From Candidatus Zixiibacteriota bacterium (GTDB taxonomy: Bacteria; Zixibacteria; MSB-5A5; GN15; FEB-12), in NCBI GenBank assembly GCA_024280215.1, contig JAJRQO010000020.1:1-41072 (forward strand): a stretch of DNA of 41,072 nt, in the 5' to 3' direction. The notes beneath the pieces were generated by a model. The model did not search any database. It was not told where the DNA came from and worked only from the letters and a program-made list of their open reading frames with translations. A program made the translations under genes and the position numbers. This document shows, piece by piece, positions 8,336 to 25,343 of the stretch (the stretch's first letter is position 1; each line of letters begins with the position of its first letter).

Positions 8336-9433
8336 GTGGCAGATTCAATTTTTATTTCAGTTGGTGAACCATCGGGGGATAACGCTCTCTCGCGTGTAAT
8401 TGAAGAACTCAAAAACGAACATACTGACTTGACTTTTTTTGGATTAGGTGGGAAACGATTGCTCGCTTTAGGGCAGGAACAATTTGCCAATAGAGAAGAT
8501 TTGGCGGTTATCGGTTTTTGGGAAGTTGCAAAGAAGTATCTTTACTTTCGAAAACTTTTTCATAGATGTTTAGATGAGATAAGATCTCGACAACCAAAGG
8601 TTGTTATCTTAGTTGATTACCCCGGATTTAATTTACGTCTGGCAAAAGAGATTAAAAAACTTGGCATTCCTATTATTTATTATATCTCTCCACAGATTTG
8701 GGCGTGGGGAAAAAAACGTATTGTTGAAATTCAAAAAAATATTGATCTGATGATTCCGATACTTCCATTTGAAGAAAAGTTTTACAACGATTCATCTGTC
8801 AATGTCAAATATGCTGGGCATTATCTTACTGAAGATATTAATGGAAATTTTATTGCATCGATTGTTCCAATTGACGGACATCTTGCCTTGCTACCTGGTT
8901 CTCGGAGGATAGAGATTGAGCGGATGCTTCCTGTGATGATTGAGACTGCTGAGACGATGTACGAGAAGTACAAAATAAAATCTGTGATTGCTGGGGTGAA
9001 GGGAATCTTTGAGTATGAAAAATTTCTTAAAAATACAAGTTGTATTTCAATTGTCTATGATGATTCCAGAAAAGTTGTCAATGATGCCAAACTTGTCTTG
9101 ACGGCATCGGGAACTGCGACGCTTGAGGTTGGTCTTATTGGAAGACCGATGGTGATTATTTATAAGACAGGGATGCTGACTTATCAGATAGCCAAACGAT
9201 TGGTCTCTTTGGATTCTATCGGGCTTGTCAATTTAGTATTGAATGATAAAGTTGTACCTGAACTTATTCAACATGAAGCGAATGAAAAAAATATTGTCGA
9301 TGCGTTGTCAAAATTTATTGATGATGAAATCTATTTACAAGAAACTACCAAGACCCTGCACACTTTGCCGACTCTCTTAGGAGAAAAAAATGTTTCGAAA
9401 AATATCGCTGGTTTCGTAGGGGAATATTTGTAG
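8336..9433 (+). CDS. lpxB: Lipid-A-disaccharide synthase
   Basis: Joins UDP-2,3-diacylglucosamine and lipid X to form the lipid A disaccharide at the inner face of the inner membrane (GT19). The 365 residues are near the usual 380. Visible signatures are 'VGEPSGDN' at the N terminus, 'ISPQIWAWGKKR', the 'LLPGSRRIEIERMLP' loop, and 'TASGTATLEVGLIGRPMV' near the nucleotide-sugar site. The start is GTG, 3 nt after the preceding stop; no in-frame ATG fits the conserved N terminus. It is part of a tightly packed run with waaA and lpxK. Confidence 0.96.
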   Translation: MADSIFISVGEPSGDNALSRVIEELKNEHTDLTFFGLGGKRLLALGQEQFANREDLAVIGFWEVAKKYLYFRKLFHRCLDEIRSRQPKVVILVDYPGFNLRLAKEIKKLGIPIIYYISPQIWAWGKKRIVEIQKNIDLMIPILPFEEKFYNDSSVNVKYAGHYLTEDINGNFIASIVPIDGHLALLPGSRRIEIERMLPVMIETAETMYEKYKIKSVIAGVKGIFEYEKFLKNTSCISIVYDDSRKVVNDAKLVLTASGTATLEVGLIGRPMVIIYKTGMLTYQIAKRLVSLDSIGLVNLVLNDKVVPELIQHEANEKNIVDALSKFIDDEIYLQETTKTLHTLPTLLGEKNVSKNIAGFVGEYL

Positions 9434-9435
9434 AG

Positions 9436-10671
9436 ATGTTATTTGTATATAATCTACTCATACGATTAGTTGCCTTTGTTTCATTTGTGGCGAAGCAAAG
9501 TAAAATTAAGACAGATGCTCAATGGCAAGGGCGATTTGCTCAAATAGAGTCTTTAGCGACGGTTGATCTATGGATACATGCCGCTTCGGTTGGTGAGGTG
9601 AAAGTTATCGGGCATTTGATTCACTATCTGATTTCTCAGAAAGAAGAAATTAAAATTCATCTTACGACGATGACAAAAACAGGCTACGAATTAGCATGTG
9701 AATTGTATAAGTCAGATAATCTTGCAGTGACGCAGTTTCCATTTGATACAAAAGCTCTTATGGTGAAAACATTTGATATTATAAAGCCAAAGTTGTTAGT
9801 AATTGCAGAGACTGAAATTTGGCCGAACTGTATTTTGGAAGCGGAAAAAAGAAAAGTCCCTATTGTGCTGGTCAATGGACGGATGTCTTCCAAAGCTTTT
9901 AAAAGATACACGTTGTTACAAAAAAGTTTTAGTTATCTTTTGAAAAAATATAATAAGTTGTTTGTGAAATCATCGGAAGATGCCATGCGTTTTTTAACTT
10001 TTGCTAATGAAAATCAAATTCAAGTTGCTGGTGATATGAAATTTGATGCACCACTTATAGAAAGAACAAAAGAAAAAGTTGATGGAATAAGAATTGCTTG
10101 TGGGATTGAATTTGATTCATATATATTGGTGGCGGGTTCAACTCGACCTGGTGAGGAAGAGATGCTTGCTGATTTGTTTCTCAAGATGATAAAAGTACAC
10201 AAGGCATTTAATTTGATTATTGCTCCTCGACATATTGAACGGGTTGATGAAATCAAAACGATACTTCAGAAAAAAAATATACAATTCAAATTGTATGGCT
10301 CATCAAGTAAACATGAATCGGTTATCTTGGTAGACAAAGTTGGTTTGCTACAAAATCTTTATCTTGCCGCCGACTTAACATTTGTTGGTGGGACGCTTGT
10401 TGGAATTGGTGGGCATAATCTTTTGGAACCTGTTTGGGCTGGCGTGCCTGTAATGTTTGGGGATTCTATTTATAACGTTAATGAATCGGCTGAGTATATT
10501 ATGAATAATAATTATGGTATGCAAGTTGGAAACAGTTCTGAACTAATCCAAAAAGTTCAGTCGCATATTGTAGGTGACTTACAATTTGCAACAAAGAGTT
10601 CAAATGACTTAGAAAATTCAGCAACTCGTGATATTGGTGATAACCTTTTGGAGTTGTTAACTCATGTTTGA
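9436..10671 (+). CDS. waaA: 3-deoxy-D-manno-octulosonic acid transferase
   Basis: Transfers Kdo from CMP-Kdo to lipid IVA (GT30), forming the inner core of LPS. It is 411 residues with an N-terminal membrane-anchoring helix and the conserved 'WIHAASVGEVKV'. Further signatures are 'IAETEIWPN', 'LVNGRMSSKAFKRY', 'GSTRPGEEEML', 'APRHIERVDEI' and 'FVGGTLVGIGGHNLLEP'. It starts 2 nt after the lpxB stop and overlaps lpxK by 8 nt, which indicates translational coupling. Whether it adds one or two Kdo residues cannot be told from sequence. Confidence 0.95.
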   Translation: MLFVYNLLIRLVAFVSFVAKQSKIKTDAQWQGRFAQIESLATVDLWIHAASVGEVKVIGHLIHYLISQKEEIKIHLTTMTKTGYELACELYKSDNLAVTQFPFDTKALMVKTFDIIKPKLLVIAETEIWPNCILEAEKRKVPIVLVNGRMSSKAFKRYTLLQKSFSYLLKKYNKLFVKSSEDAMRFLTFANENQIQVAGDMKFDAPLIERTKEKVDGIRIACGIEFDSYILVAGSTRPGEEEMLADLFLKMIKVHKAFNLIIAPRHIERVDEIKTILQKKNIQFKLYGSSSKHESVILVDKVGLLQNLYLAADLTFVGGTLVGIGGHNLLEPVWAGVPVMFGDSIYNVNESAEYIMNNNYGMQVGNSSELIQKVQSHIVGDLQFATKSSNDLENSATRDIGDNLLELLTHV

Positions 10672-16874: not shown

Positions 16875-19046
16875 ATGATTGGAATCAATAATATATCTGT
16901 AGAATTCTTATCCGACACTATTTGGCTCAATATTGTTGCTGGGTTGATACTTTTGACACTTGCATTTTTTTTGTATTTAAGAACTAATCCACCAATCCCA
17001 AAATATTTAAAAGCAATTTTTATCTCTCTTAGGGTTATAGCAATCTTGGCATTGCTTTGTGCTTTGTTTGAACCGATTTTGTCGTATGAGCAAAGTTTTA
17101 GTCGCAAACCACGAATTGCTCTTTTATTGGATGAATCTAAAAGTATTGATAAAGTGGAAAATGAATTATCTCGAAGAGCAAGACGTGATTCATTGTTTTC
17201 GAGTTCGGCATTTGAATTTATAACTGATAGAGCTGATGTCGTAACATACTATTTTGGTGAAAATATTTCTGAAGATGTTTCTAAAGTTAAAACCGATGCG
17301 ACATCGCTTGCAGATGCGGTCATGTATGTAGGATCTCATCAAATAGAATCTGAATTTGATTACCAAATTCTCTTTTCTGATGGAAATAGTAATACAGGGC
17401 GACAGGTTGATGCGATAACATCACTTTTGAAAACAAAAACACATAGCGTTGATTTGTCATTAGGTGGTAAACGGTATGACCTTTCAGTGGTTGAAATAGA
17501 TTATAACCCTGTCATGTTTTCAGAGAGAACAACAGAAATAAAATTAAAAGTCAAATGGGAAAATTCAGAATCTCAAACGATACCTATTCAACTAATGGAT
17601 TCTAACAGAGTTGTTGCTCAATCAACCTTTAGCATTAATCAATCTGAAGGGTTTGGGGAAATCGTTTTAACATACCGACCTTCTGAATCAGGTCAAAAGA
17701 TTTTAACGCTCAAAGTTGCTACGACTGAAACAGAAGAGAATAAAAGTAACAATACAAAATCATTTTCGGTGAAAGTGCTAAAATCTAAATTAGAAATTCT
17801 ATTGTTATCTGAGAATCCTGACTATGAGTTAAGTTTTTTAAAAAAACGATTAGAAAAATCAGACAAATATAATATAGAACTTCGTTTGCTTGGTCGAAAA
17901 TCAGGAAACTTATCTGGTTTGATCCCATCACGACAATCTGAGTTAAATAAATATGATTTGATAATAATTCATGATGTGAGTCCTGCTTTATTATCCTCAC
18001 GGCAAGAATTGTTCGACTCCTATTTGCAGGATAAGGGTGGTTCAATTTGGTTTTTGCTTGGAGAGAACTATGCTGCGTCAGAGATTTCTCCATGGTTTAA
18101 TTCCCTGCTTCCGTTTTCTCAAACACAAAAATCTCATGTTTTATACAGATCATTTCATGCGGAACCGTCAGAGGGGAATTTGTATCATCCCTCGATTCGT
18201 ATAGCCGAGAATCAAACCGCGATTCGTCAAGGATGGGCGGAGCTTCCACCATTTGAACAAATTGTCAGATGTGAATCTGTTTTACCGCAAGCGACAATTT
18301 TGGCATTTGCATCTGGACTGATAAATCAAAATGGAAATCAAATACCAATAATCGGCTTTGTTCGTAATGGTCCAGGGAAAGTTTTAGCAGTTGCGGCACA
18401 GCCATTTTGGAATTTCGGCTTTTTATCCATTGGTTTTGGTGAGTCTGATGAAGCCTATACAAGCTTTATTGAAGGGTCTGTCGATTGGTTGACGGTAAGT
18501 GATGATTTAGAACCGATTCGAATTTTTCCACAAAAATCTATTTTCACTCGGGGTGAAGTCGTTCAGTTTGATGGTTTTGCTTTTGATTTAGGGTACCGTC
18601 CTATTAAAAATGTTACAGGGACAGTTGTGTTGAAAGGGAGTGAAAATAATTTGTACCAAGCTGATTTGTTGATGGTTGATGATGGGAAGTACAAAGCGAT
18701 TTTACAAAATATTAAGCCCGACAGATATACCTACCAAGCTGTTTTTGTAAAAGATGGGAGGACTTTAAAAGATGTGACTGGACAGATTGAAGTTGGTGAA
18801 TTTTCTCTTGAAGAGTTTAACCGTGACGGTGATTCCCAGAATCTTAAAATGATTGCTTCGATAGCGGGTGGAACTTATACAACAGCGACGGATTTTGAAA
18901 AACTTGTACAGACGATAGAATTACAACCAATTGAAGTTATAAAAAAAACAGAAGTGAATCTTTGGGATAAACTTCTGCTTTTGATTCTTTTTATCTCAGC
19001 TCTATCTCTTGAATGGCTGATAAGAAAACTTAATCAGTTAATCTAA
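16875..19046 (+). CDS. VWA / amidotransferase-like membrane protein
   Basis: A 723-residue protein with two N-terminal membrane helices (about 18-35 and 47-65) and a C-terminal one (about 702-718). A von Willebrand A-like segment carries an intact-looking MIDAS DxSxS (Asp86, Ser88, Ser90), a Thr in 'TDATSLADAV' and Asp169 in 'LFSDGNSN'. A CARDB-like beta domain (about 200-305) follows, then an amidotransferase-like fold without a recognisable catalytic cysteine, then a beta domain before the last helix. This layout matches large BatA/YfbK-neighbour-type membrane proteins, usually found beside MoxR and DUF58 genes, which are absent here. The function is unknown. Confidence 0.8.
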   Translation: MIGINNISVEFLSDTIWLNIVAGLILLTLAFFLYLRTNPPIPKYLKAIFISLRVIAILALLCALFEPILSYEQSFSRKPRIALLLDESKSIDKVENELSRRARRDSLFSSSAFEFITDRADVVTYYFGENISEDVSKVKTDATSLADAVMYVGSHQIESEFDYQILFSDGNSNTGRQVDAITSLLKTKTHSVDLSLGGKRYDLSVVEIDYNPVMFSERTTEIKLKVKWENSESQTIPIQLMDSNRVVAQSTFSINQSEGFGEIVLTYRPSESGQKILTLKVATTETEENKSNNTKSFSVKVLKSKLEILLLSENPDYELSFLKKRLEKSDKYNIELRLLGRKSGNLSGLIPSRQSELNKYDLIIIHDVSPALLSSRQELFDSYLQDKGGSIWFLLGENYAASEISPWFNSLLPFSQTQKSHVLYRSFHAEPSEGNLYHPSIRIAENQTAIRQGWAELPPFEQIVRCESVLPQATILAFASGLINQNGNQIPIIGFVRNGPGKVLAVAAQPFWNFGFLSIGFGESDEAYTSFIEGSVDWLTVSDDLEPIRIFPQKSIFTRGEVVQFDGFAFDLGYRPIKNVTGTVVLKGSENNLYQADLLMVDDGKYKAILQNIKPDRYTYQAVFVKDGRTLKDVTGQIEVGEFSLEEFNRDGDSQNLKMIASIAGGTYTTATDFEKLVQTIELQPIEVIKKTEVNLWDKLLLLILFISALSLEWLIRKLNQLI

Positions 19047-20998: not shown

Positions 20999-21730
20999 TT
21001 AAAACAAATCGGCAGGGAAGAGGATAGAAATTTTGTTTTCTGATTCGGGAACAATAGAGACTGTATACGAAACGGTATCGGTATCAGGAATATAAATGAC
21101 CGTTAATGTATGAACTCCTATTGGTAAAGCTGTAAACGAAAAATTACCGCTTTGATCAGGAATCACAGAGGTTGTGTTGTATCCGCCTGAGCCATTGGGG
21201 TATTTCATCTGAATATTGAGAGAGTCTTTATATACTGTCCCCGGGGCTTGACCTGAGGCATCGATAACATATCCACTCAAACTGTTTGATAAAAGTGATG
21301 CTGACGATGAAGCAAAATCTTTATCGATATTTGTACCCGAACCTATGGAACGAATTGAGGTTGTGCTTAAAACATAGGCAACATTCCAAGCATCTTGCAG
21401 ATAGTCACTATTTGCGGTTCCGTTCGTCATGTATGGTCCATCCCAAGTTGTATATCCTCCTGGGTTTTGATAAAGGGCAGATAAGTTAGGGGGAAGCGCT
21501 CCAATATCGCCGACATAGCCAAAATCGGTACGTGAACCATTGAGATATACTTGTGGATTTCCGACAATTGCATAAGCAAGTTGGTCGAGTTCTTTTTTTG
21601 TGTGTTCATGTTGTGCAGTGTTTATCGAGCTTGACATATTTCGCACTGCTACTGATGAAATCACTCCGATAATGAGAATTATTAATACTAATTCTATGAG
21701 TGTAAAACCTGTTTGGTTTTGTGAATTCAT
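20999..21730 (-). CDS. GspG-like prepilin, short form (gene 4 of 4)
   Basis: A 243-residue type II pseudopilin-like protein. The leader ends MNSQNQTG|FTLIEL, with the invariant Glu at mature position 5, and is followed by one hydrophobic helix. The GspG-type body has 'DFGYVGDIGALPPNL', 'TWDGPYM' and 'LQDAWNVAY'. After it comes a carboxypeptidase-regulatory-like beta domain (about 150-225; 'SGYVIDASGQAPG', 'GNFSFTALPIGVHTLTV'). Unlike its three upstream paralogues it lacks the glycine linker and C-terminal domain and ends soon after. It starts with a 1-nt TAATG overlap with the previous gene. Confidence 0.88.
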   Translation of the reverse strand: MNSQNQTGFTLIELVLIILIIGVISSVAVRNMSSSINTAQHEHTKKELDQLAYAIVGNPQVYLNGSRTDFGYVGDIGALPPNLSALYQNPGGYTTWDGPYMTNGTANSDYLQDAWNVAYVLSTTSIRSIGSGTNIDKDFASSSASLLSNSLSGYVIDASGQAPGTVYKDSLNIQMKYPNGSGGYNTTSVIPDQSGNFSFTALPIGVHTLTVIYIPDTDTVSYTVSIVPESENKISILFPADLF

Positions 21731-22875
21731 TATGGACAGGCTCCAGTATTAAATGTGATAACAGAACCATCAGAGAATGTAATAGTAAAATCAGTATTAC
21801 TCATGACAGCATCATTACCACCAGTTGGTTGATCTTTAAACCCCTTTATTTCTATGTTTATTGTTTGTCCAGCATTTATAGCTTGAGGATTGTCAAAAGT
21901 TGCGGTAGCACCTGAACCGATTCTTGGATCTTCCTCTTCGTATACTTTCTCACCATTGTATTTAATTTCTCTAAAATATGCTGTAGGAGAAGACCATATT
22001 GGTGTGATACTTGTTAGAGTGATAGGGCTTCCAGTAGTGTTGATAATATCAAAATTAAATTTATCACAATCTCCACCAGTTGTTTGAGCAGTACCGCCTA
22101 CATATTGTATTGCTCCAGTCCCCCCACTTGAGGAAGAATTCCAGTAATTAGATGGAAATGTATATGCATCATATATAGAAGACTTTGGAGTAGATGAAAC
22201 AAACCGTTTTAGAGTGTCAGAACTTGGAATATAGACTATTTGAATATCATGATTGCCAATAGGAATTGAATCAAACGAGAAATATCCTCCGTAGTCAGGG
22301 GTAATTCCTTTTGTAAGAATACCACCTGTTCCATTTGGAATAGATATTAAAATAGAAATAGAATCTTTATAGATAGTACCAGGAGGGGTTCCATCGGCAT
22401 CATAAATATTACCAGAAACCTGATTGATAAGAAAATCTGTTGTCGCTTCACCGATTTTATGTACAATTGAAGAACCGGAACCTGTGGAAGTTATATCAAC
22501 TCCAGAAAAATTATATGTTACCCCCCATGCATCTTGCGAATAATCATTTGGGAGTTGGGAGAATCTATTTGTGATGTATGGACCTTTCCATGTAGCATAT
22601 CCACCTGGGTTAGTCATGAGAGCATCAATATTGAGAGGCATTGCACCAATATCACCGACATAACCGAAGTCGTTTCGGACGTTATTATTTATTAGATTAT
22701 CATTACCAACTATGGCATAGGCAATGTCATGCATTTCTGTTTTAGTTATTTCGGTTCTACCTGTTTCCGTGATAGTCGTAGCTGATCGCATTGCAACAGA
22801 GGCAAGTATTCCAGCTATGATTACAGCCATAACTACTTCTATTAATGTTACGCCTTTGTTGTTTAGATATAGCAT
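21730..22875 (-). CDS. GspG-like prepilin with added beta domains (gene 3 of 4)
   Basis: 381 residues. The prepilin leader ends NNKG|VTLIEV, with Glu at +5. The GspG-like region has 'DFGYVGDIGAMP', 'TWKGPYI' and 'SQDAWGVTY'. A carboxypeptidase-regulatory-like domain follows ('SGNIYDADGTPPG', 'GGYFSFDSIPIGNHDI'). A short Ser/Gly linker leads to a ~110-residue C-terminal domain with two cysteines ('GGDCDKFNFDI' and the final 'TGACP'), probably disulfide-bonded outside the cell. It is coupled by TAATG overlaps at both ends. It would be cleaved and methylated by a prepilin peptidase encoded elsewhere. Confidence 0.9.
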   Translation of the reverse strand: MLYLNNKGVTLIEVVMAVIIAGILASVAMRSATTITETGRTEITKTEMHDIAYAIVGNDNLINNNVRNDFGYVGDIGAMPLNIDALMTNPGGYATWKGPYITNRFSQLPNDYSQDAWGVTYNFSGVDITSTGSGSSIVHKIGEATTDFLINQVSGNIYDADGTPPGTIYKDSISILISIPNGTGGILTKGITPDYGGYFSFDSIPIGNHDIQIVYIPSSDTLKRFVSSTPKSSIYDAYTFPSNYWNSSSSGGTGAIQYVGGTAQTTGGDCDKFNFDIINTTGSPITLTSITPIWSSPTAYFREIKYNGEKVYEEEDPRIGSGATATFDNPQAINAGQTINIEIKGFKDQPTGGNDAVMSNTDFTITFSDGSVITFNTGACP

Positions 22876-24047
22876 TAGTTACAACTTCCTGTATTAAAAG
22901 TGATAACTGAACCATCTGAAAATGTAATTGTAAAGTCTGTATTGCTCATATTTACTTTATTACCATTAGTCGGTTGATCTCTAAATCCTTCTATTTGAAT
23001 ATTTATTGTTTGTCCAGCATTTATTGTTTTAGGATTATCAAACGTAGCGGTAGACCCCGAACCGATTCTTGGGTTTTCCTGTTCATAAACATCATCACCG
23101 TTATATTCGACCTCTTTGAAGTATGCCGTTGGTGATGCCCATTGAGGTGTGAGACTTGTTATAGTAATAGGACTACCTGTAGTATTGATAATATCAAAAT
23201 TAAATTTATCACAATTCCCACCAGTAGTTTGTGCTGTACTATTTACATATTTAATAGATCCTGAACCACTAAGTCCACCGCCCCCCCCGCCGCTACCACC
23301 AGAGGTAAAGTATGAGGATGCAAATTTGAAAGTTTTGTTGCTTTTGTGTCGAGGGAGGATTGTTAATATCGAGTAGAGTGTATCAACATTTGGAGTGTAG
23401 ATTATTCGCAATGGGTGTTGACCAACAGGGAGTGAGTCGAGAGTAAAAACACCGCTTGCGTTGGTAAGATAGGATCTTGATGTGGTTCCACCTGCACCAT
23501 TTGGGATAGTTATATTGATATTGATAGAATCAAGATAGGTCGTACCGGGAGTAGTACCTGACGCATCGAGAATGGTTCCGTTAAAGTTATTCAAAGTATA
23601 ATCAGTAGTTGCATCGGCAATCTTTTTAGTGATAATTGTACCACTACCATTTGAAGAAATCGTCAACCCGCCTGTGTAAGTATAAGCATTTCCCCATTCG
23701 TCAGTTTTGTAACCATCGGTGTCTTGAGTGAATTGAGTCGAAATATATGGTCCATCCCATGTTGTATACCCACCTGGATTTATAATCAAGGCATCGAGAT
23801 TGGGAGGGAAGGAGCCTACATCACCGATGTAACCAAAATCCCCACGTTGATTTCCAGCAGATATGTCAGCATTACCGATGATAGCGTCTGCGAGCAGTTC
23901 CATTTCACGTTCTGTTTTTACTTGTCGTGCATCAGTAATGAGAACAGTCATCGACTGCATTGCAATCGATGCCATGATACCAATCGTGATTATTATGATA
24001 GTGACTTCTATGAGTCCGAAACCGTTATTGTTATTCAATCTAATCAT
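22875..24047 (-). CDS. GspG-like prepilin with poly-Gly linker (gene 2 of 4)
   Basis: About 390 residues from the ATG at 24047, which forms an ATGA overlap with the preceding stop. An in-frame TTG at 24053 is less likely. The leader ends NNNNG|FGLIEV. The order of parts is as in gene 3: helix, GspG-like region ('DFGYIGDVGSFPPNL', 'TWDGPYI', 'TDEWGNAY'), carboxypeptidase-regulatory-like domain, glycine linker, C-terminal two-cysteine domain. The linker is encoded by a homopolymeric run of eight G on the coding strand (23281-23288), a place where slippage would remove the C-terminal domain. Confidence 0.9.
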   Translation of the reverse strand: MIRLNNNNGFGLIEVTIIIITIGIMASIAMQSMTVLITDARQVKTEREMELLADAIIGNADISAGNQRGDFGYIGDVGSFPPNLDALIINPGGYTTWDGPYISTQFTQDTDGYKTDEWGNAYTYTGGLTISSNGSGTIITKKIADATTDYTLNNFNGTILDASGTTPGTTYLDSININITIPNGAGGTTSRSYLTNASGVFTLDSLPVGQHPLRIIYTPNVDTLYSILTILPRHKSNKTFKFASSYFTSGGSGGGGGGLSGSGSIKYVNSTAQTTGGNCDKFNFDIINTTGSPITITSLTPQWASPTAYFKEVEYNGDDVYEQENPRIGSGSTATFDNPKTINAGQTINIQIEGFRDQPTNGNKVNMSNTDFTITFSDGSVITFNTGSCN

Positions 24048-25237
24048 AAGCAAGGTCCAGTGTTGAAAATAATAATGGATCCATCCGATAAAGTGATAGT
24101 CATATCTGTATTAGTCATATCAACTTTTTGTCCACCAGTTGGGTTCTCTTTAAATCCTTCAATATCAACGGTAACTATTTCTCCAGGAGTAATTGTAATT
24201 CCAGGAAAATTAATTATCTGTCCAGTACCATTCCTTGGGTTGGAATTATCAAAAACTTCTGTACCACCAATTTCTACTTCTTTATAGTATCCTGTTGGAT
24301 TTAACCAATCAAATGTTATTGATGTAATAGTTATATTACTTCCACTATTATTTTTCAAATCAAATTGAACATCATCACAATTACCACCGCTTGTTTGTCC
24401 AGTTCCATTAACATAGATTAAATTTCCACTACCTCCACCACTACCTCCACCTCCTCCGCTACTTAAACCAGTAGTGTCACACCAGAGTGAGACAGGAAAC
24501 TGAACATCGGCATGGTAGAGGGAATTTGGATTGATATAAATTTTTCTATAAAGGGTATCATTGTTTTTGAGTTCGACTATAGTAAGTGTTTGTTGTCCAA
24601 TAGGTATAGAATCAAATTCTACGAACCCATCAGCGAATGGAAATTTACTATCGGTTTGATAACTTCCAAGCCCATTAGGATAAGTTAGATTTACTCTTAC
24701 CGAATCTTTGTCGATTGTACCTGGGGGACAGTGGTCTAAGTCTACTATATTCAACGAGACTCTGTTGTATAAAAGTACATCGGAGTTGTTTGCAAGCTCT
24801 CTTGTGATTGTTGTCGAACCACCAGTTGAAGAAATTGTCACTCCACCTGAGTAGGTATATTGTTTGCCCCATCCATCAATAGCATATTCAGATTCTGTCG
24901 CTGCCGACGATGCATAGAAGTCATCTTTCAGATATGGACCATCCCATGTTGCCAGCCCAGGGTCTGTCACGAGATTATTCAAGTTGGAAGGCAATGCTCC
25001 AATATCACCAACATAGCCATAATCAATTCTATGGTTACCAGAGATTTTTTGTTCATCCCCGACAATCCCAATCGCTAACTGGTCTAGTTCGATTTTTGTT
25101 TCTTCTGTTTTTGAGACATCGACAGTCTTTCCCATAAATCTCATTGATGCAGTCATGAGAATCGATATGACAATCATGACGACAACGAGTTCAAATAGAG
25201 AGTAGCCGTTTATATTTTGTAAGTTCTTTTTACTCAT
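24044..25237 (-). CDS. GspG-like prepilin with added beta domains (gene 1 of 4)
   Basis: 397 residues and the first gene of the four-gene run. The leader ends NING|YSLFEL, with Glu at +5. The body has 'DYGYVGDIGALPSNL', 'TWDGPYL' and 'IDGWGKQYTY'. The middle beta domain is the most divergent of the set and has an extra cysteine ('LDHCPPG'). A long Gly/Ser linker precedes a C-terminal domain with 'GGNCDDVQFDLKNNSG' and the final 'NTGPCL'. GGGAAA lies just upstream of the ATG. No secretin, ATPase or platform protein lies nearby, so the assembly machinery must be elsewhere. Confidence 0.9.
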   Translation of the reverse strand: MSKKNLQNINGYSLFELVVVMIVISILMTASMRFMGKTVDVSKTEETKIELDQLAIGIVGDEQKISGNHRIDYGYVGDIGALPSNLNNLVTDPGLATWDGPYLKDDFYASSAATESEYAIDGWGKQYTYSGGVTISSTGGSTTITRELANNSDVLLYNRVSLNIVDLDHCPPGTIDKDSVRVNLTYPNGLGSYQTDSKFPFADGFVEFDSIPIGQQTLTIVELKNNDTLYRKIYINPNSLYHADVQFPVSLWCDTTGLSSGGGGGSGGGSGNLIYVNGTGQTSGGNCDDVQFDLKNNSGSNITITSITFDWLNPTGYYKEVEIGGTEVFDNSNPRNGTGQIINFPGITITPGEIVTVDIEGFKENPTGGQKVDMTNTDMTITLSDGSIIIFNTGPCL

Positions 25238-25313: not shown

Positions 25314-25343
25314 AAAAAAACCCGCTAAAGAAGCGGGTTTTCA
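25314..25343 (-). terminator. Intrinsic terminator of the Fe-S operon
   Basis: The stem AACCCGC (25319-25325) pairs with GCGGGTT (25333-25339). Reading on the minus strand it is followed by a T7 tract (25314-25320). It lies about 140 nt beyond the ferredoxin gene and shields the prepilin run. Confidence 0.85.

Follow-up and report, generated by a model that had tools for sequence, protein, structure and literature searches.

Type IV pilins with grafted domains are a published kind of protein, the modular pilins, and fusions to PF13620 and PF13385 domains are among their common architectures (PMC8179133). PilB and PilC of Streptococcus sanguinis have been shown experimentally to be modular pilins whose heads, a vWA and a lectin domain, bind proteins and glycans; their structures have been solved and a tip complex has been modelled (PMC8179133, PMC9934059).

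Here we describe a cassette of four prepilin genes from Candidatus Zixiibacteriota. The window, meaning the whole stretch of DNA that was analysed, is 41 kb long and comes from contig C26 of a 3.03 Mb genome, 96% complete, in a 42-contig assembly. Outside the window, gene neighbourhoods in this genome were read from regions surrounding the loci concerned. The initial annotation knew of no described system with this layout. That view was too broad, in that modular pilins are published; it stands for a four-slot cassette with exchangeable heads, which we did not find described. A literature search (subscription papers and preprints lay outside its scope) returned nothing on the same system and no dedicated pilus or secretion work on the phylum. 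Pilins with grafted domains are thus known, and what appears undescribed is an ordered set of orthologous carriers, the exchange of their heads and their link to a secretion or pilus operon.

The cassette and its surroundings

ORF calls place four adjacent prepilin genes, overlapping or abutting, on the minus strand at 20999-25237. We refer to their positions as slots 1 to 4, to the leader, pilin module and following sandwich as the carrier, and to the C-terminal domain as the head; the head type found in the window is called ct. The features are as follows.

24044..25237, minus strand: slot 1 modular prepilin, 397 residues, with leader, GspG-like pilin module, transthyretin (TTR)/CPD-like sandwich, Gly linker and ct head; slot-1 clade support 100/99
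24047..24430, minus strand: slot 1 ct head, a probable beta sandwich with two terminal Cys
22875..24047, minus strand: slot 2 modular prepilin with ct head, read from the ATG at 24047 and overlapping slot 1 by ATGA; slot-2 clade support 99/95
22878..23264, minus strand: slot 2 ct head, 78% identical to the slot 3 head on carriers that are 45% identical
21730..22875, minus strand: slot 3 modular prepilin with ct head, 381 residues, TAATG junction, AlphaFold model with pLDDT 89; slot-3 clade support 93/82
22447..22875, minus strand: slot 3 leader, alpha-1 helix and GspG-like pilin module (model residues 1-143, from secondary structure; GspG-like motifs in the alignment)
22138..22446, minus strand: slot 3 transthyretin/carboxypeptidase-regulatory-like beta sandwich (model residues 144-246; Z 8-11.7 over 78-95 residues)
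21733..22119, minus strand: slot 3 ct head, from the structure model and head comparison
20999..21730, minus strand: slot 4 prepilin, 243 residues, carrier only and headless, from the ORF call; headless in 42/42 slot-4 genes
25316..25342, minus strand: hairpin resembling an intrinsic terminator, lying upstream of slot 1 and closing the ferredoxin-type gene before it

The junctions are ATGA at 24044-24047 and TAATG at 22875 and 21730, as originally read. The slot 2 ORF had been listed from a TTG (22875-24053, 392 residues); an in-frame ATG at 24047 is the likelier start and gives about 390 residues. The cassette is probably its own transcription unit; four terminator-like sites were found where chance would give 2.7.

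Genes conserved next to the quartet, named from a look at the sequence, seem to have housekeeping roles (PdxS-like, an Rrf2-type regulator and saccharopine-dehydrogenase-like) and offer no functional hint. A 723-residue protein at 16875-19046, which has no Pfam match at E 1e-5, lies near the quartet in 21 of 44 loci. The window also holds LpxB and Kdo-transferase genes (8336-10671), which point to lipid A synthesis and to a diderm envelope, in agreement with the secretin operon described below.

Carriers and heads

All four predicted proteins begin with a class III leader that ends in Gly and continues as YSLFE, FGLIE, VTLIE or FTLIE, with Glu at +5 in each case. Profile PF07963 scores above its cut-off in three of the four, and T2SSG matches fall below theirs. 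The GDIGA-type, TW.GPY and D.WG..Y motifs are conserved in an alignment of the four. The canonical leaders and GspG-type bodies of the initial annotation were therefore confirmed. A second module of about 100 residues is common to all four proteins, and a Gly/Ser linker with a further domain of about 110 residues follows in the first three only. The second module had been read as carboxypeptidase-regulatory-like, which is weak by sequence (PF13620 in two proteins, E 5e-4 and 3e-4, below cut-off) but evident from the structure model of the third protein. That AlphaFold2 model, built with 58 sequences, has a mean pLDDT of 89 and a pTM of 0.57, so that the relative placement of its domains is uncertain. 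It shows a helix at residues 11-56, and a structure search matched residues 144-246 to carboxypeptidase M/N/D and transthyretin-type sandwiches at Z 8-11.7, among them 6hif_Y (Z 11.7, rmsd 1.9 over 86 residues) and carboxypeptidase M 1uwy (Z 10.1, rmsd 1.7 over 79).

In sequence and predicted structure the proteins resemble modular type IV pilins: a hydrophobic helix follows a class III signal peptide (Gly at -1, Glu at +5), and the pilin module is fused to a C-terminal module that is not pilus-specific (TTR/CPD-like here, LamG and jelly-roll in relatives). Their tie to a filament is a genomic one, through the assembly operon described below. Like GspG, the proteins have the leader, the pilin module motifs and the GPY and DxWG motifs near the calcium site. 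Unlike GspG, they score only 29.8, 20.7, 18.9 and 13.6 bits with TIGR01710, whose equivalog cut-off is 88.85, they carry about 100-550 extra residues across the family, and their system has another GspG-like protein; judged by these scores, they are not GspG itself. GspH and PilV models gave weak matches in the leader region only, far below their cut-offs, and neither an HIJK-type nor a PilV, W or X identity was recovered. A viral or phage origin of the carrier was also considered and dropped, as a scan of viral contigs gave no relative.

We next consider the history of the carriers. On a quick FastTree tree of the 254 distinct carriers collected, the slot labels need 5-6 changes, compared with about 122 when shuffled. 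In a more careful IQ-TREE analysis of 94 carriers, all labels together fit with 4 changes, the fewest that could occur, where shuffled labels need 57; slots 1 to 3 form clades with the support listed above, the operonic forms group at 90/87, and slot 4 falls into one or two groups. The four positions are therefore four old, separately inherited carrier lineages that have been kept in order.

The heads behave quite differently from one slot to another. Slot 4 is always headless and slot 1 is headless in 29 of 39 genes, and slots 2 and 3 mostly bear a head. On the carrier tree, head type changes at least 7 times in slot 1, 18 times in slot 2 and 9 times in slot 3, and never in slot 4; these counts are approximate, as only ct was labelled by HMM, the other heads by sequence patterns, and the tree was a quick one. 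The same pattern is seen within the window's genus: slot 2 carriers that are 71% identical bear ct in one species and LamG in another, slot 1 carriers at 69% bear ct or the head type labelled RP, and slot 3 carriers at 66% bear ct or no head. Heads have thus been replaced repeatedly on stable carriers, by archaellin-like, jelly-roll/CBM-like, LamG lectin and other types, or by none. The window's own slot 2 and slot 3 heads, far more alike than the carriers beneath them, suggest that heads also move between slots; in addition, the slot 2 head is 67% identical to the slot 3 head of one congener and 54% to its slot 2 head. This is the identity pattern that head copying would leave.

Concerning their identity, some heads are LamG/ConA-like lectin domains. 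They score 69.6-108 bits with PF13385 (cut-off 27.6; E down to 6e-31) in five proteins of four relatives, and are absent from the window. Two very large heads, of 354 and 456 residues (L066 8496-10310 and L071 8860-10971), consist of LamG plus further domains, for instance DUF2341. The RP head, about 165 residues long, is a jelly-roll in a medium-confidence model (pLDDT 76). It resembles CBM16 2zew (Z 8.8), CBM27 1oh4 (Z 8.1) and the sugar-binding F-box domain 1umi (Z 9.3), values that may reflect a common sandwich, and it also resembles small phage proteins (TM-score 0.78, normalised by target).

Of 129 genomes of the phylum, 82 have a ct head, and in all loci examined it follows a carrier, save for one copy whose frame is cut by a contig edge. 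Of the initial description of the domain, its Gly linkage in three of the four proteins and its two Cys, which are terminal, hold in the window, but the Cys are not a family-wide trait and are missing in many operonic relatives. A CBM2-like reading based on the terminal Cys pair found no sequence support, and the ct head has no firm ligand-binding relative. PDB profile searches with it were empty or gave chance-level matches, and structure searches with the whole model were dominated by the TTR-like domain and did not pick out the ct fold.

Some ct heads match the archaeal flagellin family PF01917. Seventeen of 51 do so at E<1; the best two, both from relatives, score 34.6 bits (E 2.9e-8) and 29.5 bits, with a gathering cut-off of 29.5, and the alignments fall within profile positions 55-161, which correspond to the Ig-like domain. 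Five reversed and five shuffled ct heads, used as controls, gave no match. The window's own ct heads have no significant PF01917 match, and no whole-genome match exceeded the cut-off. Our reading is that the ct head likely has an archaellin-type Ig fold. Because the globular domains of bacterial pilins and archaeal Ig-like domains have been reported to be unrelated (PMC7347861), an archaellin-like ct head is worth testing.

Linkage to a secretion or pilus operon

A carrier-alignment scan of bacterial and archaeal genomes, which used one short peptide pattern and could therefore miss relatives outside the phylum, found named loci almost entirely in Candidatus Zixiibacteriota, with a few titled Calditrichota, Ignavibacterium or simply 'bacterium'. 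Within the phylum, 106 of 132 genomes have a carrier at E <= 1e-30. In two families of the window's order (f3 and f4), as in further lineages of the phylum, a conserved operon takes in between one and three modular prepilins; its order is ATPase E, platform F, pilin 1, GspG-like pilin, modular prepilin(s), PilM-N fusion, PilO-like, C/PilP-like and secretin. In the window's family (f1) and its sister family f2, the prepilins instead stand apart as a block that usually has four genes. On contig C17 (L053) the window's genome keeps the operon, in which PilMN directly follows GspG. Among 15 further regions from relatives, 13 have the operon, all from quartet families and none with a modular prepilin inside it; the other two (L194 and L195) lack the operon. 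This complementary distribution, prepilins inside the operon in some lineages, and in others a separate quartet together with an operon free of them elsewhere in the genome, is our main argument that the quartet works with the C17-type machine. The carrier model also fits the operon's own small GspG-like pilin (E 2e-29 over model positions 8-141).

The absence of secretion genes beside the quartet is accordingly a derived, local trait. The initial annotation was right that the window has none; the genome, however, has them on another contig, where its proposed search for gspD/E/F and pilB homologues recovers E, F and a secretin.

As to the kind of machine, E scores best with PilB, F with GspF and the secretin with PilQ, all below equivalog cut-offs, and the operon adds a PilM-N fusion that is GspL-like and a GspC domain that stays below threshold. 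All seven T2SS kinds (E, F, G, L, M, C and D) are seen, by weak or hybrid scores, and we therefore call the machine T2SS/T4P-type. The quartet could be pseudopilins of a genuine type II secretion system, with periplasmic heads that recruit or sort secreted cargo. The GspL- and GspC-like components and the GspF affinity of F are consistent with this, as is the separate T4P-type GspF of relatives, and cargo-binding beta domains would be expected to diverge quickly too. We nevertheless consider it unlikely: the PilB and PilQ affinities leave the operon not clearly T2SS, the LamG and CBM-like heads resemble the adhesive heads of known modular pilins, and the nearby M6 metalloprotease, with its sorting domain for type IX secretion, makes no obvious cargo for a T2SS. 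That protease belongs to a group of genes that recurs beside the operon in two families (L053 3027-8943 and L088 14165-19905), with a DUF6055-like protein, an exported protein of about 535 residues and a small zinc-ribbon-like protein. Thr replaces Glu at +5 in one of the three operonic carriers of a family f3 locus (L074 7985-8746, GFSLVTIL). Lack of Glu5 characterises tip-capping minor pilins, GspK for example.

Other pilus genes are present in the genome. Contig C21 has a second set comprising a pilin, PilM, PilN, PilO-like, a 479-residue protein and a secretin (L054 6798-12780), with no local ATPase or platform gene, and PilT is on contig C27. Three PilV/PilW/PilX-like minor pilin sets lie apart from the quartet, two on C28 (L057 2752-9309) and one on C6 (L056 6461-8609), which suggests several tip complexes in one genome. 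It is therefore conceivable that in quartet genomes the cassette was taken over by a separate type IVa pilus, built from the C21 PilMNO-secretin set and the C27 PilT rather than by C17. The cassette left the operon in exactly the quartet families, and relatives have a second GspF-type system, so that the cassette could serve another filament where it stands as a quartet, a point against our preferred assignment. Yet the carriers remain GspG-like and orthologous in kind to the operonic forms, and the C17 operon is kept in every quartet genome checked, so that we regard such a takeover as improbable.

The quartet might also form the body of a filament, a heteropolymer of four modular pilins decorated along its length and comparable to the archaellum. 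The fixed order of the four subunits and the archaellin-like Ig head would suit this arrangement, but the operonic relatives pair one modular prepilin with two ordinary small pilins, and heads ranging from about 110 to 456 residues are easier to accept at a tip; a body role is very doubtful. Finally, the autonomy that a window free of machinery genes had implied, as a new pilus lacking assembly machinery of known type, is already contradicted by phylum-wide synteny with a standard E-F-secretin operon, inside which relatives carry these genes and which this genome retains elsewhere, and we give it almost no weight.

The initial annotation had held that absence of a prepilin peptidase from the genome would refute its reading. 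Formally it is absent, as PF01478 has no match in the window's assembly. However, all three congeners have the peptidase, as do 57 of the 61 genomes searched; true absence is accordingly unlikely, and an assembly gap is far more likely. In relatives the gene often lies about 24-34 kb from the operon, and on C17, a contig of 53 kb with the operon at 24-32 kb, such spacing would put it at or beyond the contig ends. A gap probably also explains the missing second GspF gene: the assembly has one and relatives usually have two. For the same reason, we dropped the argument that a sole GspF proves the linkage.

A proposed filament tip with exchangeable heads

Overall, these data lead us to consider it probable that the quartet encodes modular minor pilins or pseudopilins of the C17 T2SS/T4P-type machine, most likely located at the filament tip, where they would present exchangeable heads. 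The original idea of filament subunits that display extra domains finds support and is strengthened. What the computation shows is the family, its domain anatomy, the orthologous slots, the head exchange and the genomic linkage to the operon. That operon encodes ATPase E, platform F, two small pilins, the PilM-N fusion (GspL-like), the PilO/GspM-like and C/PilP-like proteins and the secretin. Prepilin peptidase would cut after the Gly, the alpha-1 helix and GspG-like module would mediate polymerisation, and the TTR-like domain would act as a spacer below a C-terminal head that is exchangeable in three of the four proteins. We infer that ATPase E and platform F assemble the subunits into an ordered hetero-oligomer, most plausibly at the tip, where bulky heads fit. 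The always headless slot 4 may connect this tip with the body pilins. For the heads, surface glycans, surface proteins or the machine's cargo are the probable ligands.

A bolder version of this model, which we put forward only tentatively, is that the phylum shares an ordered tip complex of four co-inherited, fixed-position carriers, whose heads are swapped between slots and acquired from elsewhere, much like phage tail fibres, and so retarget the filament, one head type being an archaellin Ig domain on a bacterial GspG-type pilin. If so, it would link two globular folds thought to be separate. The cassette gives a handle on a filament system in this phylum, and with it the chance to test whether a bacterial pilin bears an archaellin-like fold. 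It also provides a natural experiment on how the binding of a type IV filament changes: the carriers stay and the heads are replaced, so that ligand, head and lineage can be compared directly.

Compared with the archaellin and archaeal pilin Ig-like domain, the likeness lies in the alignment of relatives' ct heads over that part of PF01917, two of them at or above the cut-off; the differences are that the window's ct heads fall short and that the head here tops a bacterial GspG-type module. The HIJK and PilVWX-FimU complexes, together with PilC/PilY1, likewise have four subunits proposed at a tip that presents an effector. In contrast to those, the Zixibacteria four are paralogues of each other and of GspG, past the leader no relation to H, I, J or K was detected, and their heads are fused, whereas PilC/PilY1 is a separate protein. 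PilB and PilC of S. sanguinis share the class III leader, the pilin module, an extra C-terminal module such as a ConA-like lectin, and the presence of several such proteins per system. The Zixibacteria carrier differs in being GspG-like with a TTR-like spacer, in belonging to a diderm phylum and in having an archaellin-like head among its types; it is also kept as four orthologous carriers in fixed order over many genera while their heads are exchanged.
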